Shown piece after piece: positions 4,242 to 26,393 of a stretch of 54,369 nt of DNA. How positions within the stretch are numbered: the stretch's first letter is position 1; each line of letters begins with the position of its first letter. This DNA is from an uncultured Bacteroidota bacterium (GTDB lineage: Bacteria > Bacteroidota > Bacteroidia > Chitinophagales > LD1), in the NCBI GenBank assembly GCA_903861145.1, contig CAIOTH010000007.1, positions 1 through 54,369 of the forward strand, in the 5' to 3' direction. The notes beneath the pieces were generated by a model. The model was not told the DNA's origin. It saw only the letters and a list, made by a program, of their open reading frames with translations, and did no database searches. A program made the translations under genes and the position numbers.

Positions 4242-6689
4242 ATGAAATACATTACTATATTATTAACTATATTATCATTCTCCGTTCTAACACGGGCTCA
4301 AAACAGCCTGGGGGGAACTGTTTATGATAAAGACACCAAAGAAACATTGCCGGGTGTAGCAGTTTATATACCAGATCTTAAGATAGGAACCGTTACCGAT
4401 TCGGCAGGAAACTTTTCGTTTACAAACATGTCGAGTGGAAAATTTTTAATCGAAATAAAATCAATTGGTTATGCCTCGAAAGTAGTAACGGCTAATACAA
4501 CAGATAATAATCCATTGCAAATATATTTATCACAATCGGCCGGTGAGTTGCAAGAGGTAGTTGTAACCGGCGTATCGAAGGGAACAGAAATACGTCGTAG
4601 TCCCGTACCAATAGTGGCTATTGATAAAGATTACCTGGTTACAAACCTGGCGTCGAATGCTATTGACGCAATTACCAAAGTACCCGGCGTAACAGCAGTG
4701 ACTACCGGACCGAACATTTCGAAGCCATATATTCGGGGCCTTGGATTTAACCGAATATTGACGTTGTTTGATGGTAACCGGCAAGAAGGCCAGCAATGGG
4801 GAGATGAGCACGGCATTGAAGTAGACCAATATAGCATTGAGCGTGTGGAAGTAATTAAAGGCCCCGCTAGTTTAACCTATGGTAGTGACGCCCTTGCAGG
4901 TGTGGTAAACCTGATACCAACACAACCGGCACCGGAAGGAGCCCTTAAAGCTGATATTACCACCAATTACGCCAGTAATAACCAGGAGATTGGGGGCAGT
5001 GGCATGGTGGAGGGCACAAAAAAAGGCATTGATTTTATGGCGCGGGTTTCGCACAAACAAGCCATTGATTACACCAATGCTATTGACGGCAGAGTATTTG
5101 GTACAGCCTACAGCGAAACGGATGCAAGTGGATCGGTGGGCATACATAGAAAATGGGGTTTCTCGCACCTTAGCTTTTCGGCATTTAACGATTTGCAGGA
5201 AATACCGGATGGAAGCCGCGATAGCGCCACCCGTGAATTTACCCGGCAAATTACTGAAATTGATACGGCGCGCGAAATTGTATCGCAACACGATCTTAAT
5301 AGTTACAAAATAGAAAAGCTGCACCAGCATATTCAACACTACCGGCTTTATAGTAATAATAACTTTTTATTAGGTACCGGTGGTTCTATTGAAGTGAATT
5401 TAGGTTATCAGTATAGCCAAAGACAGGAGTTTAGCCACCCGGTGCTTTATACCATACCCGGGTTGTTTCTGCAACTGAACACCTTTAACTACGACATTAA
5501 ATACCACATGCCCGAAATAAAGGAATGGAACTTTGTGCTGGGCATTAACGGTATGTACCAAGACAACAAGGTAACCAACGGTACGGACTTCGTAATTCCC
5601 TCTTACCATCAATTTGATATTGGGCCGTTTGCAGAAGTAAAACGGAGTTTTGGCAAGTTCGATATAGAAGCAGGGTTGCGATATGATTTCAGGGTTTTCG
5701 ATAACCAGCAACTGTATGCCAAACCTAACCCGGCAACAGGTTTTGATATGCCGGTAACCGGAGCAAATACGGTTGGCGCGAACAAGATATTCCCGAATTA
5801 CCATGCCCTTTACCAAGGGCTTTCGGGCAGTATAGGGGCAACGTATAATGTTACCAGCCAATTGTGTATTAAGCTTGATTTAGCAAGGGGTTTCCGGGCG
5901 CCAAACATTGCAGAAATTTCGGCCAATGGCGTGCACCCCGGCACTAACATTTACCAGCTTGGCAACACCTTTAAACCGGAATTTAGTTTGCAACCGGATT
6001 TGGGGATTGCATTCAGTTCGAAGTACGTGGCATTTTCGGTGGATGTGTTTTATAATTATTTGCAGAATTACATTTACAACCAAAAGCTATTGGGGGTTAA
6101 CGGACAAGACTCAGTTATTGTGCCCGGTAATCAAACCTTTCAATTTGAATCGGCACGCGGGCAATTGTATGGGGCAGAGTTAAGCCTGGATATTCATCCC
6201 TTAAAGTCACTACATTTTGACAATGGGCTTAGTTTAGTTTACGGTGACTTTTTAGGGCAAAAAGGACAGGTAGTTGCCGATAGCGAGCGTTATTTGCCCC
6301 TTATACCACCGTTACATGGGACCAGTGAAGTACGATATGACTTTAGTGTTAAGGCGGCACATTTGCTGAATTCGTTTGTAAAGGTTGGCATAGTTTATTA
6401 TGCAGCGCAAAACCGGGTTTACAGCGCGTTTGGCACCGAAACACAGACACCGGGTTATGTATTGCTTAACGCAGGATTGGGGACTAGCCTAACCAATAAA
6501 AAGGGTAAAACCATTGTTAGCGTTTATCTTTTAGGGAGTAACCTACTTAACACTGCTTACCAGGATCATTTAAGTCGATTAAAATATTTCGAATTTTATC
6601 CGAACAACCCTACCGGCCATTCGGGTATATATAATATGGGCAGAAATATTTCGGTTAAGCTTGATTTTCCGCTGGATTTTAAAATTTGA
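4242..6689 (+). CDS. TonB-dependent outer-membrane receptor
   Basis: 815 residues from the ATG at 4242 (an upstream in-frame TTG at 4236 adds only two residues). Signal peptide at about 1-20; a CarboxypepD_reg-like beta-sandwich domain (about 22-105, GGTVYDKDTKETLPGVAVYI); then a plug domain (about 120-225, with VPGVTAVTTGPNISKPYIRGLGFNRILTLFDG split across its core and VEVIKGPASLTYGSDALAGVVNL at its end); then a 22-strand type barrel ending with an aromatic-alternating strand and a terminal hydrophobic residue. It imports a ligand across the outer membrane using TonB energy. It lacks a SusD partner, which favours metal or siderophore-type ligands over glycans. The His/Cys-rich neighbour supports metal uptake; the substrate is inferred. 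Confidence 0.92.
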   Translation: MKYITILLTILSFSVLTRAQNSLGGTVYDKDTKETLPGVAVYIPDLKIGTVTDSAGNFSFTNMSSGKFLIEIKSIGYASKVVTANTTDNNPLQIYLSQSAGELQEVVVTGVSKGTEIRRSPVPIVAIDKDYLVTNLASNAIDAITKVPGVTAVTTGPNISKPYIRGLGFNRILTLFDGNRQEGQQWGDEHGIEVDQYSIERVEVIKGPASLTYGSDALAGVVNLIPTQPAPEGALKADITTNYASNNQEIGGSGMVEGTKKGIDFMARVSHKQAIDYTNAIDGRVFGTAYSETDASGSVGIHRKWGFSHLSFSAFNDLQEIPDGSRDSATREFTRQITEIDTAREIVSQHDLNSYKIEKLHQHIQHYRLYSNNNFLLGTGGSIEVNLGYQYSQRQEFSHPVLYTIPGLFLQLNTFNYDIKYHMPEIKEWNFVLGINGMYQDNKVTNGTDFVIPSYHQFDIGPFAEVKRSFGKFDIEAGLRYDFRVFDNQQLYAKPNPATGFDMPVTGANTVGANKIFPNYHALYQGLSGSIGATYNVTSQLCIKLDLARGFRAPNIAEISANGVHPGTNIYQLGNTFKPEFSLQPDLGIAFSSKYVAFSVDVFYNYLQNYIYNQKLLGVNGQDSVIVPGNQTFQFESARGQLYGAELSLDIHPLKSLHFDNGLSLVYGDFLGQKGQVVADSERYLPLIPPLHGTSEVRYDFSVKAAHLLNSFVKVGIVYYAAQNRVYSAFGTETQTPGYVLLNAGLGTSLTNKKGKTIVSVYLLGSNLLNTAYQDHLSRLKYFEFYPNNPTGHSGIYNMGRNISVKLDFPLDFKI

Positions 6690-22900: not shown

Positions 22901-23641
22901 CTATCTGCACATAGCCCCACATACACTTAAAACCTGGCCTGAAACATAAGTTGACAGGTCGCTTGCAAGAAAGAGGGCCGCATTTGCAACCTCGTCAGCG
23001 CTACCCATTCGCTTCATCGGAATTTGTGAAAGAATGCCCTTTTTCGTTTCTTCAGAAAGCACCGAAGTCATATCGGTTTCAATAAAGCCGGGGGCAATAG
23101 CATTACAGCGAATACCACGTGAACCGAACTCATCGGCAATTGATTTGGTAAACCCTATAATACCGGCCTTTGACGCCGCGTAGTTAGATTGGCCAGCCTG
23201 GCCCTTTAAGCCAACTATAGATGTGAGGTTAATAATCGAACCTTTTTTATTGCGCAGCATGATTTTAGAAACGTGCTTAGACAGGTTGAACACCGATTTA
23301 AGGTTTGCATTGATAACATCATCCCATTGTTGCTCAGTCATTCTTAATATCAGGTTATCACGCGTTACGCCGGCATTATTTACCAGTATATCAATAGTGC
23401 CAAACTCTTTTACAACTTCTTCTACCAGTTTTTCGCTTTCGGAATATGAACCTGCATCTGATTTAAAGGCTTTTGCCTTTATGCCCAAAGCGTTTAACTC
23501 AGCCTCGAAGGCTTTAGCTTTCTCCTCGGAGCTGAGATATGTGAAGGCAACGTTGCACCCCTGCTCGGCAAATTTCCTAACTATGGCGTACCCTATCCCT
23601 CTTGTGCCACCTGTAACAAGGGCTGTTTTATTTTTAAGCAT
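22901..23641 (-). CDS. fabG: 3-oxoacyl-ACP reductase
   Basis: 246 residues from the ATG at 23641 (MLKNKTALVTGG), the normal FabG start; a longer frame adds 13 residues unlike the family. FabG reduces beta-ketoacyl-ACP with NADPH in fatty acid elongation. Cofactor motif TGGTRGIG (10-17), NNAG (88-91), catalytic Ser141, Tyr154 and Lys158 are present, and the tail YVSGQVLSVCGAM fits the family. No other fab genes are adjacent, so an acyl-chain role outside type II FAS is possible. A GC-rich hairpin (23659-23673) lies in its leader. Confidence 0.9.
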   Translation of the reverse strand: MLKNKTALVTGGTRGIGYAIVRKFAEQGCNVAFTYLSSEEKAKAFEAELNALGIKAKAFKSDAGSYSESEKLVEEVVKEFGTIDILVNNAGVTRDNLILRMTEQQWDDVINANLKSVFNLSKHVSKIMLRNKKGSIINLTSIVGLKGQAGQSNYAASKAGIIGFTKSIADEFGSRGIRCNAIAPGFIETDMTSVLSEETKKGILSQIPMKRMGSADEVANAALFLASDLSTYVSGQVLSVCGAMCR

Positions 23642-23766
23642 GCAGATCGTTTTATTAAGCCTCGCGCGGAGGCCTGACAAAGAAAAAATTTTTTAGTCAG
23701 CAATTAAACTTCTATTCAGGCAAGAAGTTTTCGTTTATTTTCGATAAACCCATCACTTAATCAGTG

Positions 23767-23818: not shown

Positions 23819-23931
23819 AAAAGTACTTAAAAAGGTTAAGAAAGTGTATTACAAATGCAGAAATTAAAGTTTGACCTATTACATTTGACCATTCATTTTT
23901 AATTAACCCAAAAAACTTAAACAAAAAAGCC

Positions 23932-24132
23932 ATGAAGAAAATCTTTTTGACTCTGTCTGTAGCTTTCGCAGTATTAGCTGTTAGCGCTCAAGGTACAACT
24001 ACCAAAACTGAGACTAAAAAAACTGAAACTAAATCTACTACTGCTAAGCCAGCTGCTAAAGCTGAAACTAAGCCAGCTGCAAAAACAACTGAGACTAAGA
24101 AAACAACTGATACTAAAACTACTACTAAGTAA
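23932..24132 (+). CDS. Short exported Lys/Thr/Ala-rich protein, paralogue 1
   Basis: 66 residues: a clear signal peptide (MKKIFLTLSVAFAVLAVSAQ, cleavage near 18-20) and a mature part made almost only of Lys, Thr, Ala, Glu and Pro (TKTETKKTET, AKPAAKAETK, TTETKKTT). No hydrophobic core is possible, so the mature chain should be disordered and strongly basic. A TACATTTG -7-like box lies at 23880-23887. It has its own strong terminator. It is the first of four adjacent paralogues with near-identical signal peptides. I do not know a function; extracellular binding to polyanions such as DNA or LPS is only a guess. Confidence 0.8.
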   Translation: MKKIFLTLSVAFAVLAVSAQGTTTKTETKKTETKSTTAKPAAKAETKPAAKTTETKKTTDTKTTTK

Positions 24133-24154
24133 TTTTAGCTCTTTGTTTTTTCTG

Positions 24155-24189
24155 ATAAAGCCCGGTTATTTAACCGGGCTTTATTTTTG
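24155..24189 (+). terminator. Intrinsic terminator of basic-protein gene 1
   Basis: Perfect 14-bp arms ATAAAGCCCGGTTA / TAACCGGGCTTTAT with a 2-base centre, followed by a T-rich run, 22 bp after the stop codon. Confidence 0.92.
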
Positions 24190-24232
24190 TACCTAAGTCA
24201 TAATGAACGTTAATGAAAATGATAATTGGGTG

Positions 24233-24290
24233 TTTGGCATTGCATTTGAAATACTGCAATCATTCATTCACTTAAAAAACATAACAAATG
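24233..24290 (+). promoter_or_regulatory. Conserved upstream block of basic-protein gene 2
   Basis: TTTGGCATTGCATTTG, then ATAC, ATCATTCATTCACTTAAAAA and ACAAATG recur nearly base for base upstream of gene 3 (24692-24749). TGCATTTG resembles a -7 box (one mismatch to TAnnTTTG) but no -33 box is evident; GG-N10-G(A/G) spacing also resembles a sigma-54 -24/-12 element. Confidence 0.55.
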
Positions 24291-24527
24291 AAAACGTTCA
24301 AAAATCTGGCTCTTTTATTCGTAGCGGCCACAATTGCAATTGGCGCATCGGCACAAGGTTCAACAACTGCTAAACCGGCTGCAAAAACGGAAACTAAAAC
24401 GGAATCCACTACGAAGACAACTGTTAAACCAACAGCTAAGACTCCGAAAACGGAAACTTCAAAAACATCAACTTCGAAAACAGAAACATCGAAGACTGAA
24501 ACAAAAAAAGAAGCTCCTAAAAAGTAG
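24288..24527 (+). CDS. Short exported Lys/Thr/Ala-rich protein, paralogue 2
   Basis: 79 residues: signal peptide MKTFKNLALLFVAATIAIGA with cleavage near SAQ (21-23), then a low-complexity mature chain (AKPAAKTETKTE, SKTETSKTETKKEAPKK). The signal region is almost the same as in paralogues 3 and 4, while the mature part varies, which indicates tandem duplication followed by repeat expansion. A separate promoter block and a separate terminator show it is a single-gene unit. The mature chain is basic and probably unstructured. Function unknown. Confidence 0.8.
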   Translation: MKTFKNLALLFVAATIAIGASAQGSTTAKPAAKTETKTESTTKTTVKPTAKTPKTETSKTSTSKTETSKTETKKEAPKK

Positions 24528-24550
24528 TATCAGTTTAAATCGAAAAGCGA

Positions 24551-24582
24551 AAATCCCGGCCGGTGGTCGGGATTTTTGTTTT
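24551..24582 (+). terminator. Intrinsic terminator of basic-protein gene 2
   Basis: 11-bp stem AAATCCCGGCC / GGTCGGGATTT with one G-T pair and a 3-base loop, followed by TTGTTTTT. Confidence 0.9.
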
Positions 24583-24691
24583 TAATACACATCTACGTCT
24601 ATAATATATACATCAAAATAAATTTCGCGGAGTGTTAACGGTTGTTGATTAGAGGTAGCTAACAGAAGTTAAAAGAAACTGATAAAACAAA

Positions 24692-24749
24692 TTTGGCATT
24701 GCATTTGGAATACACCCATCATTCATTCACTTAAAAAACAAAACAAATG
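24692..24749 (+). promoter_or_regulatory. Conserved upstream block of basic-protein gene 3
   Basis: Nearly identical to 24233-24290: TTTGGCATTGCATTTG, ATAC, ATCATTCATTCACTTAAAAA, AACAAATG. Conservation stretches through the leader into the signal peptide codons, so the duplication unit included the promoter. Confidence 0.55.
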
Positions 24750-24977
24750 AAAACCATCAAAAACCTGGCGCTGTTGTTTGTAGCCGCAACCATAACATTG
24801 GCTGCTTCTGCACAAACGTCAACCACGTCGAAGCAAACAAGCACGACAAAAACTTCAACCGCTAAAACGGAAACAAAAACTGCTGCCAAAGACAGCAAAA
24901 CAGATGCAAAGGCTAAACCAGCGCCTACAACCAAGGGCAAACCGGCTACCAAAAGCACAGCACCTGCAGCCAAGTAG
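24747..24977 (+). CDS. Short exported Lys/Thr/Ala-rich protein, paralogue 3
   Basis: 76 residues: signal peptide MKTIKNLALLFVAATITLAA, cleavage near SAQ (21-23), mature part TSTTSKQTSTTKTST, then Lys/Asp/Pro-rich AKDSKTDAKAKPAP and a tail ATKSTAPAAK. Same organisation as paralogue 2, with a slightly more mixed composition. It carries its own terminator. Likely periplasmic or extracellular and disordered. Function unknown. Confidence 0.8.
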   Translation: MKTIKNLALLFVAATITLAASAQTSTTSKQTSTTKTSTAKTETKTAAKDSKTDAKAKPAPTTKGKPATKSTAPAAK

Positions 24978-24993
24978 TATTTAAGTTTCTGGT

Positions 24994-25030
24994 ATAGAGA
25001 TCCCGGTTAAATCCCGGGGTCTCTATTATT
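24994..25030 (+). terminator. Intrinsic terminator of basic-protein gene 3
   Basis: 13-bp stem ATAGAGATCCCGG / CCGGGGTCTCTAT with one G-T pair and a 7-base loop, followed by TATT. Confidence 0.88.
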
Positions 25031-25105
25031 TAAAACAAAGAGAAAATATTTTCTTCTCAATTCACAAGTTCATATATTTACACATAACTAAAAACAAAAC
25101 AAAAA

Positions 25106-25423
25106 ATGAAAGCAATCAAAACATTGGCTATGTTATTTATAGCAGCCACTATTACCTTAGGCGTTAGCGCACAAGGAGCAAAGGGAACAACCGGGGCAAA
25201 AGCATCAACCGGTGCCAAGGCTACCACAGCAACACCGGCTAAAACTACAACTGCAACTCCAGCCAAAACTTCAACCCCACCGGCTGATGTAAAATCAACC
25301 GATAAAGTTGATGCTACTATGAAAGGGCCTAAAGGTGAAACAGTTTACACCGGCCCTAAAGGTGGCAAATACTACCTTAACGCAAGTGGCAAAAAGGCTT
25401 ACCTTAAGCAAGAGGCTAAATAA
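25106..25423 (+). CDS. Exported basic protein with PBCV-basic-adaptor-like C-terminus, paralogue 4
   Basis: 105 residues: signal peptide MKAIKTLAMLFIAATITLGV with cleavage near SAQ (21-23), an Ala/Thr/Lys/Pro low-complexity linker (about 24-65), and a compact C-terminal motif GPKGGKYYLNASGKKAYL (83-100). That motif matches the short PBCV-specific basic adaptor domain as I remember it (GxxGGxYYxNxxGxKxY), found in chlorovirus and bacterial proteins and suspected of binding nucleic acid. It is the only member of the cluster with a recognisable fold, so it may show what the linker-like paralogues work with. Confidence in the domain is moderate. Confidence 0.82.
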   Translation: MKAIKTLAMLFIAATITLGVSAQGAKGTTGAKASTGAKATTATPAKTTTATPAKTSTPPADVKSTDKVDATMKGPKGETVYTGPKGGKYYLNASGKKAYLKQEAK

Positions 25424-25444
25424 TTTTTGTTGAGCAATTTTTGT

Positions 25445-25474
25445 AAAGGCCTCCATGCAAACATGGGGGCCTTT
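25445..25474. terminator. Terminator between basic-protein gene 4 and the convergent lipid kinase
   Basis: 13-bp stem AAAGGCCTCCATG / CATGGGGGCCTTT with one G-T pair and a 4-base loop CAAA. It lies in the 52-bp gap between two stops and probably serves both strands. Confidence 0.9.
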
Positions 25475-25475
25475 G

Positions 25476-26393
25476 TTATTTAGGTGAGATAAATTTTATA
25501 GCCGCCGGAACAACCTTTAATTTCAAAGGGGTATAACCTACAAACTCGCCATCCATATCAATTGGCAATGGCCCGATAGATGATTCAATTAACAATTGCG
25601 CTGCGGTTAGGTACTTAATTTCGGAGTGTTCAATTTTTTTGGACTTCTTAATTTTTCCAAGGTTCATCAGATATTCCAGAATTGAAATCTTCCCCACAAT
25701 TACCACCGAAAACAATTTATCATCGGGCAAAGCATCGGGTGCTATACCCATTCCGCCACCAAAAAACCTGCCATTGGCAACTATCAGGCTCATAACCTCA
25801 CGTTCATAATCAAAACTATCGGCATGCACTTTTACAGGTTGATTTTTATAAGTAAGCAATGCCGTTAAAATCGCTTTTTGGTAGGTTATGGTTGGCCCCA
25901 GAACCTTTGAAGAATTTGCCAGGCGCTGAGCAATAGCGCCACCGATACCTACATCGGTAATATTTACGAAATAACGACTTGCCTGCTGGCCATCACCATC
26001 AAAATATTCCGTCCAGCCAATATCTACTACCCTGTAGCTATCTTCTTCTATCCACTTTTTTAGAAGTGCTATCTCGTAGGTAACGCCGATCGTTCGTGCA
26101 AAATCGTTACCAGTGCCATTAGGCAAAAGCCCTATCCTTATCTCGTTTACGTTATTACTATTGGCGCTCATTACGCCATTAATAACCTCATTCAGGCTAC
26201 CATCGCCGCCTATGCAAACCACATGCGTTGCGCCATTGAGCACCGCTGTGCGAGCTAATTCGGAGGCGTGGTTGGCATGTTGTGTTACTAAAAAAGTTAG
26301 GGTAGCAGTATCGCCAAAGTGCGCTTTAATGCCCACAATTATTTTATAGTGGTTCTTTATTTTGCCATGTAGAATAAAGGCAATTTGCTTCAT
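25476..26393 (-). CDS. Diacylglycerol kinase-family lipid kinase
   Basis: 305 residues. DagK/YegS/BmrU-like family, which phosphorylates diacylglycerol or related lipids at the cytoplasmic membrane face. Seen motifs are VCIGGDGSLNEVINGV (the GGDG ATP-binding/catalytic loop, about 59-75), LPNGTGNDFARTIG (about 90-104) and a C-terminal DGEFVGYTPLKLKV block with the conserved DGE. Length is normal. It stands alone, convergent with the basic-protein cluster. The exact lipid substrate is unknown. Confidence 0.9.
   Translation of the reverse strand: MKQIAFILHGKIKNHYKIIVGIKAHFGDTATLTFLVTQHANHASELARTAVLNGATHVVCIGGDGSLNEVINGVMSANSNNVNEIRIGLLPNGTGNDFARTIGVTYEIALLKKWIEEDSYRVVDIGWTEYFDGDGQQASRYFVNITDVGIGGAIAQRLANSSKVLGPTITYQKAILTALLTYKNQPVKVHADSFDYEREVMSLIVANGRFFGGGMGIAPDALPDDKLFSVVIVGKISILEYLMNLGKIKKSKKIEHSEIKYLTAAQLLIESSIGPLPIDMDGEFVGYTPLKLKVVPAAIKFISPK

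Follow-up and report, generated by a model that had tools for sequence, protein, structure and literature searches.

A tandem array of genes for small, apparently exported, basic proteins in an uncultured Bacteroidota bacterium, the last with a PBCV-basic-adaptor-like C-terminal domain

Results

An uncultured Bacteroidota bacterium carries four tandem plus-strand open reading frames for small, apparently exported, cationic and probably unstructured proteins (Table 1). This confirms the tandem array of a first-pass annotation, which had described a duplicated family of exported basic low-complexity proteins; export is assigned from the sequence pattern of the signal peptides. Judged by sequence, gene 4 is a member of a family with a scattered distribution in the Bacteroidota, which combines a signal peptide, a lysine-rich linker and a C-terminal PBCV-like domain, and genes 1 to 3 look like domain-less expansions of this type. 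We consider it possible, if somewhat short of probable, that exported disordered polycations of the Bacteroidota have expanded here locally in tandem and shield envelope polyanions, the domain serving as their docking module. The array is flanked by a short-chain dehydrogenase gene and a lipid kinase gene of the YegS type (PF00781, PF19279). An Rfam scan of the window (the whole analysed stretch of 54,369 nucleotides) at gathering scores gave no match, and no tRNA was found there.

Table 1. Features of the array, in window positions
Feature	Position	Strand	Description	Basis
Gene 1	23932..24132	+	66 aa; signal-peptide-like start, then Lys/Thr-rich chain	ORF
Gene 2	24288..24527	+	79 aa; signal-peptide-like start, then Lys/Thr/Ser-rich chain	ORF, homologues
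Gene 3	24747..24977	+	76 aa; signal-peptide-like start, then Lys/Thr/Ala-rich chain	ORF, homologues
Gene 4	25106..25423	+	105 aa; signal-peptide-like start, low-complexity linker, PBCV_basic_adap-like C-terminal domain	ORF, PF08789, alignment A1
Gene 4 C-terminal domain	25322..25420	+	small all-beta module (predicted)	alignment A3, AlphaFold2 model, viral fold match
Gene 1 TACATTTG	23880..23887	+	fits Bacteroidota -7 element TAnnTTTG	
Gene 2 TGCATTTG	24241..24248	+	-7-like, second base deviates from TAnnTTTG; within block common to gene 3	
Gene 3 TGCATTTG	24700..24707	+	-7-like, second base deviates from TAnnTTTG; within block common to gene 2	
Hairpin 3' of gene 1	24154..24185	+	probable terminator	-21.1 kcal/mol, z -5.25
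Hairpin 3' of gene 2	24543..24583	+	probable terminator	-26.2 kcal/mol, z -5.65
Hairpin 3' of gene 3	24985..25036	+	weaker T-tract	-24.2 kcal/mol, z -4.89
Hairpin 3' of gene 4	25444..25475	+	between two convergent genes	-22.7 kcal/mol, z -3.77
Degenerate direct repeat, gene 2	24199..24213	+	at -89	3 mismatches to GTTAANGAAAGTTAA
Degenerate direct repeat, gene 3	24658..24672	+	at -89	3 mismatches to GTTAANGAAAGTTAA

Homologues were found in relatives, with the same architecture and partly the same neighbours, so the absence from close relatives that the first-pass annotation had named as refuting did not occur. The domain is present in 9 of 18 genomes of the genus; in the phylum, where 395 genomes were sampled, 36 have it (16 of 171 genera). 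Bacteroidota carriers include Spirosoma, Larkinella and a Flavobacterium. PF08789 matches above the cut-off occur in 20 of 296 phylum genomes, and 15 of 21 places found with Pfam's own model show a signal peptide and a linker of at least 15% Lys/Arg, which is a crude test. Since the domain gene is absent from half of the genus genomes (9 of 18, and 8 of the 13 more complete ones), it seems to be dispensable. It adjoins a YegS-type lipid kinase gene in the relatives G008, G009, G010, G011, G012 and G015. Domain-less array genes like genes 1 to 3 occur in four genus genomes, and the arrays of G008, G009 and G010 have first genes similar to gene 1. A match to the gene 4 query in G006 (E 7.4e-4) is a longer open reading frame without the domain and was left out of the member count.

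The end of gene 4 had been likened to the PBCV basic adaptor. This likeness rises above noise and is conserved, and it is borderline against the Pfam cut-off of 20.4 bits, with PF08789 scores of 19.8 bits (E 8.8e-4) on the protein and 21.3 bits in genome mode. In alignment A1, PF08789 is matched by 5 of 9 members with an E no higher than 0.01 (best 3.2e-5); seven other homologues comprise two that match below the cut-off (19.0 and 18.3 bits) and five without a match at E up to 0.01. The domain has a dN of 0.14-0.24 against a dS of 0.87-1.80 in the five pairs with computable dS, which, together with the conserved motif, argues against noise. The fourth gene had been said to add the motif; more probably the module came first, and genes 1 to 3 lost it or never had it.

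The predicted fold of the gene 4 domain agrees with the PBCV_basic_adap comparison. The best match of the domain model among the viral models of BFVD is named PBCV-specific basic adaptor (E 8.8e-3, probability 1.00, TM 0.57, 41% identity), and a PBCV-specific basic adaptor protein stands at rank 3 for the Spirosoma model (E 0.052). Both compare model against model, and neither gave a match at E 0.001. The model of the Spirosoma homologue has a pLDDT of about 46-50 by block in the linker and of 92-94 in the domain. Against the PDB, no fold was found for the gene 4 domain model at E under 1; its best re-aligned match has a Z of 2.8 (rmsd 3.1, 45 residues aligned), the Spirosoma model gave a single match (Z 2.0, rmsd 3.3, 52 aligned) and a single-sequence PDB search gave two, the best at E 0.79. 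Kinship with WW domains was rejected: Salvador WW domains are the best PDB sequence matches of the profile (E 0.015), but no fold supports them. A topoisomerase I match of the domain is equally weak (Z 2.6, rmsd 2.8, 41 aligned). Among 50,697 phage records, tblastn with a 32-aa stretch detected no carrier of the domain.

The signal peptides of genes 2 to 4 had been called nearly the same, and identities of 19/23 (genes 2 and 3), 17/23 (genes 3 and 4) and 15/23 (genes 2 and 4) bear this out; that of gene 1 shares 10-11 of 23 residues with the other three. The mature parts of all four proteins have a net charge of +7 to +10 and a pI of about 10, and their only aromatic residues are four Tyr in gene 4. 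As proposed, mature chains vary freely. In each of the 21 genus proteins examined, the linker is net positive (+1 to +12), lacks aromatic residues and Cys, and contains few hydrophobic residues (0-7 of ILVMF). The weak linker charge of gene 4 in the window (+4) and of its G009 counterpart (only +1) counts against envelope polycations. Secreted cationic antimicrobial peptides or bacteriocins would likewise be small, apparently exported, cationic and multi-copy. Linkers so poor in aromatic and hydrophobic residues speak against such peptides, as do flanking genes that include no obvious immunity or export gene and a bacteriocin-like Pfam match of gene 3 (YxzE, E 0.29) far under the cut-off, and we regard this explanation as very improbable.

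High output had also been proposed for the family. Scored towards ribosomal proteins, the four array genes reach +0.015 to +0.177 bits per codon and 12 neighbours -0.034 to -0.226, with small reference sets (800 and 3662 codons) that were scored in-sample while genes 1 to 4 were held out, and with a ribosomal reference of five open reading frames, only L2 of which was identified by a model. This ribosomal-like codon usage suggests high output, strongly only for genes 1 and 4, because gene 3 (+0.015) falls below the lowest ribosomal open reading frame (+0.041) and gene 2 (+0.049) lies barely above it. One might take the array for decaying low-complexity open reading frames without function, given the freely varying mature chains, a stop inside the domain of one Larkinella duplicate and the degenerate window copies of an upstream repeat described below. 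Codon scores that exceed those of all 12 neighbours, the low dN relative to dS of the domain in the five computable pairs and the composition retained in the 21 genus proteins make such decay very improbable.

Neither a lipidation cysteine nor a secretion tail was recognised. The four mature proteins and the 21 genus linkers contain no Cys, hence no lipoprotein cysteine follows the signal peptide, and LPAM_1 matches gene 1 only, at 10.8 bits against a cut-off of 20. No type IX C-terminal sorting domain appeared among the Pfam and NCBIfam matches of the four proteins at E up to 10, a range in which the HMMER filters drop most weak matches. This leaves the proteins with a Sec-like signal and no known route across the outer membrane, and the proposed action outside the cell is not borne out. 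D[ST][AILVMT] is an O-glycosylation motif; none of the 21 genus proteins has it in its mature part. Another suggestion of the first-pass annotation was a surface or biofilm-matrix component, here taken as a glue for cells or exopolysaccharide. Low-complexity Thr/Lys-rich chains, the codon usage and the amplification of paralogues would suit a matrix role, and 6 of the 9 sequences in alignment A1 match PF21827 New_glue with an E of 0.01 or lower (best 2.5e-4). The window proteins stay below its cut-off of 31 (gene 4 16.2, gene 2 14.6, gene 3 12.8 bits), and because the match spans signal peptide and linker we take it as one of composition. With the missing lipidation cysteine and secretion-tail model also against it, we judge a matrix role rather unlikely.

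Genes 2 and 3 share a leader and promoter block, as the first-pass annotation had noted: in the 56 nt that precede the ATG the two agree at 50 positions, and in the adjoining 64 nt upstream at only 18. Elements were compared with the Bacteroidota -7 consensus TAnnTTTG (as given in a passage of PMC6847099). A Kozak-like A at -3 was dismissed as a signal, being found in gene 4 only; an A is at -6 in genes 1 and 3, and all four genes have one at both -12 and -13. Each gene is followed by a strong hairpin, and the claim that each has its own terminator is best supported at genes 1 and 2, since a clear T-tract follows only these two; a consensus terminator scan listed none of the four.

Of 17 upstream regions in relatives, 12 carry a direct repeat, GTTAA-N5-GTTAA, when up to 2 mismatches are allowed; it lies 80-98 nt ahead of the start codon. 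All seven exact copies in seven genomes lie upstream of members of this family. Because the pattern was itself derived from these regions, its presence in them is in part a circular result. More telling is that the seven genomes have no other exact site, where a reversed control pattern gave 5 matches, and that L069, which did not enter the pattern, carries it exactly at -91, while L068 has it with 2 mismatches at -100; it was not found in L070-L074, L076, L077, L079, L083 and L084, whose best scores are 4-6 mismatches. Among 21 genus upstream regions, the 12 with 0-2 mismatches are all in relatives, three have 3 mismatches (genes 2 and 3 of the window, G009_g2) and six have 4-6 (genes 1 and 4 of the window, G009_g1, G009_g4, G008_g4, G009_x). 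For gene 2 of the window, an alternative placement with 3 mismatches lies 10 nt further on. That the repeat is degenerate at genes 2 and 3 of the window and unrecognisable at genes 1 and 4 counts against the envelope-polycation reading, and so does the result that in the organism's own genome no copy within 1 mismatch lies at the array genes; there are 2 one-mismatch matches elsewhere against 6 for the reversed control, and a general, genome-wide regulon is thus not supported.

Discussion

The array proteins may coat or protect the cell envelope. The founding form would be that of gene 4, in which the signal peptide is followed by a flexible lysine-rich chain and, at the C-terminus, a beta module of the PBCV_basic_adap type; genes 1 to 3 would have retained export and the cationic chain without the module, so that more chain would be made. 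Once exported by Sec, the chains would reside for the most part in the periplasm or on the outer membrane, where they could neutralise or shield polyanions such as lipid A and LPS phosphates, envelope polysaccharide and stray nucleic acid. They may also keep envelope proteins soluble under stress, by analogy with what is reported for Asr in Escherichia coli, and the module would dock the chain to a putative partner. Also counting against this reading are the domain gene's absence from half of the genus genomes, codon scores that are strong for only two of the four genes, the homologues that PF08789 does not match or matches under its cut-off, and the low score with the Asr model given below.

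Asr is described, in a part of PMC10746267, as a disordered periplasmic chaperone of E. coli with a role in outer-membrane integrity. By analogy the array proteins are comparable to enterobacterial Asr, yet they are not members of the Asr family. Both are small, basic, of low complexity and exported (the array proteins apparently so); unlike Asr, the array proteins are multi-copy, and with the Asr model NF033636 gene 4 scores 16.7 bits against 50, while genes 1 to 3 are not listed. We know of no such PBCV-like C-terminal domain in Asr.

Lysine-rich chains would bind DNA. The array proteins could therefore act on DNA outside the cytoplasm, either matrix eDNA or incoming DNA, with the basic chain condensing it and the C-terminal module giving affinity for nucleic acid. 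In PBCV-1, A278L and A282L are annotated as a kinase with a PBCV-1 specific basic adaptor domain and have a pI of 10.8; six basic proteins came along with the DNA of the virion, these two included (PMC3281028, in passages on these proteins). In those passages DNA binding is not assigned to the domain itself, and the kinases are very basic (PMC3281028). The likeness of gene 4 to PF08789 lies in a C-terminal sequence near or over the cut-off and in the predicted fold; the domain is annotated on virion-packed kinases in PBCV-1, whereas in gene 4 it ends an apparently exported lysine-rich chain in which no enzyme domain was found. Another carrier is a DNA/RNA non-specific endonuclease (Endonuclease_NS; L087 and L130 are the same gene, thus one case) of another Bacteroidota genome, which shares with gene 4 the phylum, a signal-peptide-like start and a C-terminal PF08789 domain (27.0 bits, over the cut-off), with the enzyme in place of the lysine-rich chain. 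The viral carriers and the nuclease suit DNA binding equally well and so count against an envelope polycation, but the nuclease is one case among the carriers seen, and periplasm and medium are normally not rich in DNA. We consider DNA binding outside the cytoplasm unlikely. For the array proteins, binding of DNA, LPS or exopolysaccharide, as well as a matrix role, is conjecture.

A wider form of the envelope-polycation reading, which we hold to be doubtful, would see a scattered but widespread and undescribed class of polycations at the Bacteroidota envelope. In it, a docking module that giant viruses also possess would hold a disordered lysine chain in place; in this lineage an activator-driven direct-repeat promoter of the class's own would control expression and tandem free chains would raise output, together forming a tunable charge shield of periplasm or outer membrane. 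The first-pass annotation knew of no description of such proteins, and our limited literature search (subscription papers and bioRxiv were outside its scope) found none of an exported Bacteroidota polycation family.

If shielding of the envelope is the function, various Bacteroidota (Spirosoma, Larkinella and a Flavobacterium included) would make a disordered envelope polycation whose shortness, repetitive sequence and near-threshold scores in profile methods let it escape notice easily. After Asr itself, it would be the second exported disordered protein of the Asr-like kind, with no kinship between the two that can be recognised, and PF08789, named from algal viruses, would gain a bacterial setting in which its ligand could be found.

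Results

The first-pass annotation had described a tandem family of four basic, low-complexity, apparently exported proteins, and the open reading frames bear this out (see table). All four N-termini carry, by pattern, a signal-peptide-like stretch with SAQ at its end, pI values are near 10, and the mature chains are high in Lys, Thr and Ala (lysine 14-26%) and almost devoid of hydrophobic residues; their aromatic residues are four Tyr, all in g4. The signal peptides of g2-g4, earlier called nearly the same, have 15 to 19 of 23 residues in common, and g1 shares only 10 to 11 of 23 with them. The g1 signal-peptide codons (23932-23991) are near-identical, silent sites included, to those of the counterpart in the genus relative G009 (L042:4212-4271), with a dS of 0.08 against 0.48-1.12 for g2-g4; constraint at the DNA or RNA level may be involved.

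The tandem genes g1-g4, spanning 23932-25475, and their flanks
Feature	Position	Strand	Codons	Mature residues	Mature net charge	Pfam; remark
Short-chain dehydrogenase gene	22901-23680	minus				PF13561, PF00106; one flank of the array
g1	23932-24132	plus	66	47	+7	
g2	24288-24527	plus	79	57	+8	
g3	24747-24977	plus	76	54	+9	
g4	25106-25423	plus	105	83	+10	
C-terminal module of g4	25322-25420	plus				PF08789-like
YegS-type lipid kinase gene	25476-26393	minus				PF00781, PF19279; other flank of the array

The leader block of g2 and g3 is conserved almost base for base, as had been noted: 50 of the 56 nt preceding the start codons are identical, compared with 18 of the next 64. A 22-nt pattern from this block, allowing up to 3 mismatches, occurs in the 4.7-Mb genome at these two places only, and its reversed control gave 0 matches. 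At a distance of 47-52 nt, g1, g2 and g3 are preceded by boxes resembling the Bacteroidota -7 consensus TAnnTTTG, as described in PMC6847099, the match being exact at g1 only; none was found upstream of g4. Relatives carry a direct repeat of 10-nt period, consensus GTTAANGAAAGTTAA (0-2 mismatches), in 12 of 17 upstream regions; it is placed 80-98 nt before the start codon and, where both elements were found, precedes the -7-like box by 41-43 nt. Such a site could suit a tandem-binding activator, and we take the repeat to resemble the boxes of OmpR-type regulators. Exact copies in seven genus genomes number 7 (four in G010, one each in G011, G012 and G016, none in G008, G009 and G015), all upstream of genes of this family; the reversed control gave 5 matches. 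Within the window, g2 and g3 have a degenerate form of the repeat (3 mismatches, at -89), and upstream of g1 and g4 it could not be recognised.

A hairpin of -21 to -26 kcal/mol lies downstream of every gene; for g1 to g4, respectively, 0, 0, 0 and 1 of 200 shuffles folded equally well. The claim of a strong hairpin after every gene stands, but their role as terminators is probable rather than shown, because a simple terminator scan reported none of the four and the T-tracts 3' of g3 and g4 are poor. Five ORFs for ribosomal proteins from this genome (800 codons) and 12 neighbours (3662 codons) served as references for codon usage. On a scale of bits per codon, on which positive values point to ribosomal usage, g1 to g4 reach +0.177, +0.049, +0.015 and +0.139 and exceed every neighbour (-0.034 to -0.226). 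The ribosomal ORFs themselves span +0.041 to +0.212; g1 and g4 lie inside this span, g2 is close to its lower limit and g3 falls slightly short of it. The proposed high output is thus suggested for g1 and g4 and only weakly for g2 and g3. In the fetched locus L148, a plus-strand run of ribosomal-protein-like ORFs ends after 5047, past an L22-looking ORF, and unrelated ORFs follow; the operon is interrupted here, or else the sequence was joined at this point during assembly.

The PBCV-basic-adaptor-like end ascribed to g4 is a borderline case for PF08789, with scores on both sides of the cut-off of 20.4 bits: residues 76-101 just miss it in hmmscan (19.8 bits, E 8.8e-4) and exceed it in a genome-mode search (21.3 bits). 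Five of nine genus members match at E <=0.01, while among seven more distant homologues two match, both below the cut-off, and five do not; PF08789 is therefore only a borderline detector of the bacterial form. Common to the nine genus sequences is a core, KGPxGETxYxGxxGGxYYL (Met replaces the last Leu in one of them), and Lys14, Gly18, Tyr22 and Tyr31 (g4 domain numbering) are invariant over 24 sequences. An AlphaFold2 model from the 24-sequence alignment has four strands (mean pLDDT 79.5); in that of the Spirosoma homologue the domain reaches 92-94 and the linker about 46-50. Among viral models, the g4 module is closest in fold to a protein from Virus NIOZ-UU159 named PBCV-specific basic adaptor (E 8.8e-3, probability 1.00, 41% identity), and at least two further proteins of that name are among the 50 matches listed; fold searches with the g4 and Spirosoma models found no solved structure with a convincing match. 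Over 28 domain codons, dN between g4 and seven relatives is 0.10-0.24 and dS 0.87-1.80 in five pairs (not computable in two), which indicates purifying selection on the module. That the array consists of decaying, functionless low-complexity frames we regard as highly improbable.

The domain occurs in 9 of 18 genus genomes, the window genome counted, and in 5 of the 13 more complete ones. Domain-less paralogues accompany g4 in the window genome and G009 (three each), G010 (four) and G008 (two); the G008 g1 homologue (L044, about 6028-6246, minus) starts with CTG where the others have ATG. A single domain gene lies next to the YegS-type kinase gene in G011, G012 and G015, and at another place in G016. 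A domain-bearing founder with later domain-less tandem copies would fit this pattern, though g1, with its deviating signal peptide, may have a different origin. Near the domain genes of two other genomes lie further exported-looking proteins: one rich in Cys, Lys, Ser and Thr, of low complexity, with repeated CCSK/CSK motifs and possibly metal-binding (L045:2267-2575, minus, G013; about 0.9 kb away), and one rich in Lys, Ala and Glu and without the domain (L079:5353-5547, minus, a Flavobacteriaceae MAG; about 1.2 kb).

Across the phylum sample, the profile of the 24-sequence alignment gave domain matches in 36 of 395 genomes (16 of 171 genera) and the PF08789 model in 20 of 296. A crude architecture test (signal peptide, linker with >=15% Lys or Arg, length <260) was passed by 15 of 21 Pfam-found places; the six failures are a nuclease, a fragment, a probable non-gene frame, a start-site failure and two low-lysine proteins. 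It was also passed by 26 of 30 fetched profile-found loci, drawn from 43 places, many being the same genes as those found by Pfam. One pass, L137 (G113), should not count, being an SH3_3-like protein (25.4 bits against a cut-off of 27); it has a signal-peptide-like start, and the two cysteine-containing GPRGGCYY modules at its C-terminus represent a variant form of the domain motif. The window g4 itself, with 14% Lys/Arg in its linker, falls one point short. Another locus, L131 (G192), encodes a long protein, presumably of the YD-repeat type by its look, with the C-terminal end GPRGGRYYINRNGNRTYL. The bacterial genome collection yielded 24 domain loci; Spirosoma, Larkinella, Flavobacterium sp. 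SUN052, Desertivirga and Flavihumibacter are among the named carriers, and the others are mostly uncultured Bacteroidota. Larkinella terrae has two lysine-rich domain genes, the second (L077:3578-4132) just downstream and with a stop inside the conserved domain; we read it as a copy in the process of module loss. Two of the outcomes named in advance as speaking against the family did not occur: homologues of the same architecture exist in relatives, in part beside the same kinase gene, and the motif is more than noise, being conserved with a domain dN well below dS in the five computable pairs.

Discussion

The g1-g4 products would probably be exported via the Sec route, judging by pattern. 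Since neither the mature parts nor the genus linkers have a lipidation cysteine, and Pfam and NCBIfam scans of g1-g4 gave no sorting-tail family match, the periplasm would be their default location. There the lysine-rich chains should be disordered and bind polyanions, with the C-terminal module as a likely docking piece. A main rival is that the proteins or their module bind DNA: the PBCV-1 module carriers A278L and A282L are described as recovered with virion DNA (PMC3281028), and a non-specific nuclease also carries the module. The other is a matrix role, to which we give a similar, fairly low probability; six of the nine genus members are hit by the New_glue Pfam model (E <=0.01), though the window proteins score below its cut-off. 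Closest to the behaviour predicted for envelope polycations is that described for Asr, which is reported to be a disordered chaperone of the periplasm with a supporting role in outer-membrane integrity and to draw, at pH 4.4, about 2% of ribosome-profiling reads (PMC10746267); the likeness is in kind only, because g1-g4 clearly fall outside the Asr family model. We put forward only tentatively, at somewhat less than even confidence, that these are exported, disordered polycations of the envelope that bind polyanions and dock through the module; the weakness of the codon signal in g2 and g3 lowers this confidence, as do the New_glue and Pfam results. Neither the polycation chain nor the module is new in kind. 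As judged from the genomes compared, the original observation is real and larger than noted: the family is scattered through the phylum and locally amplified.
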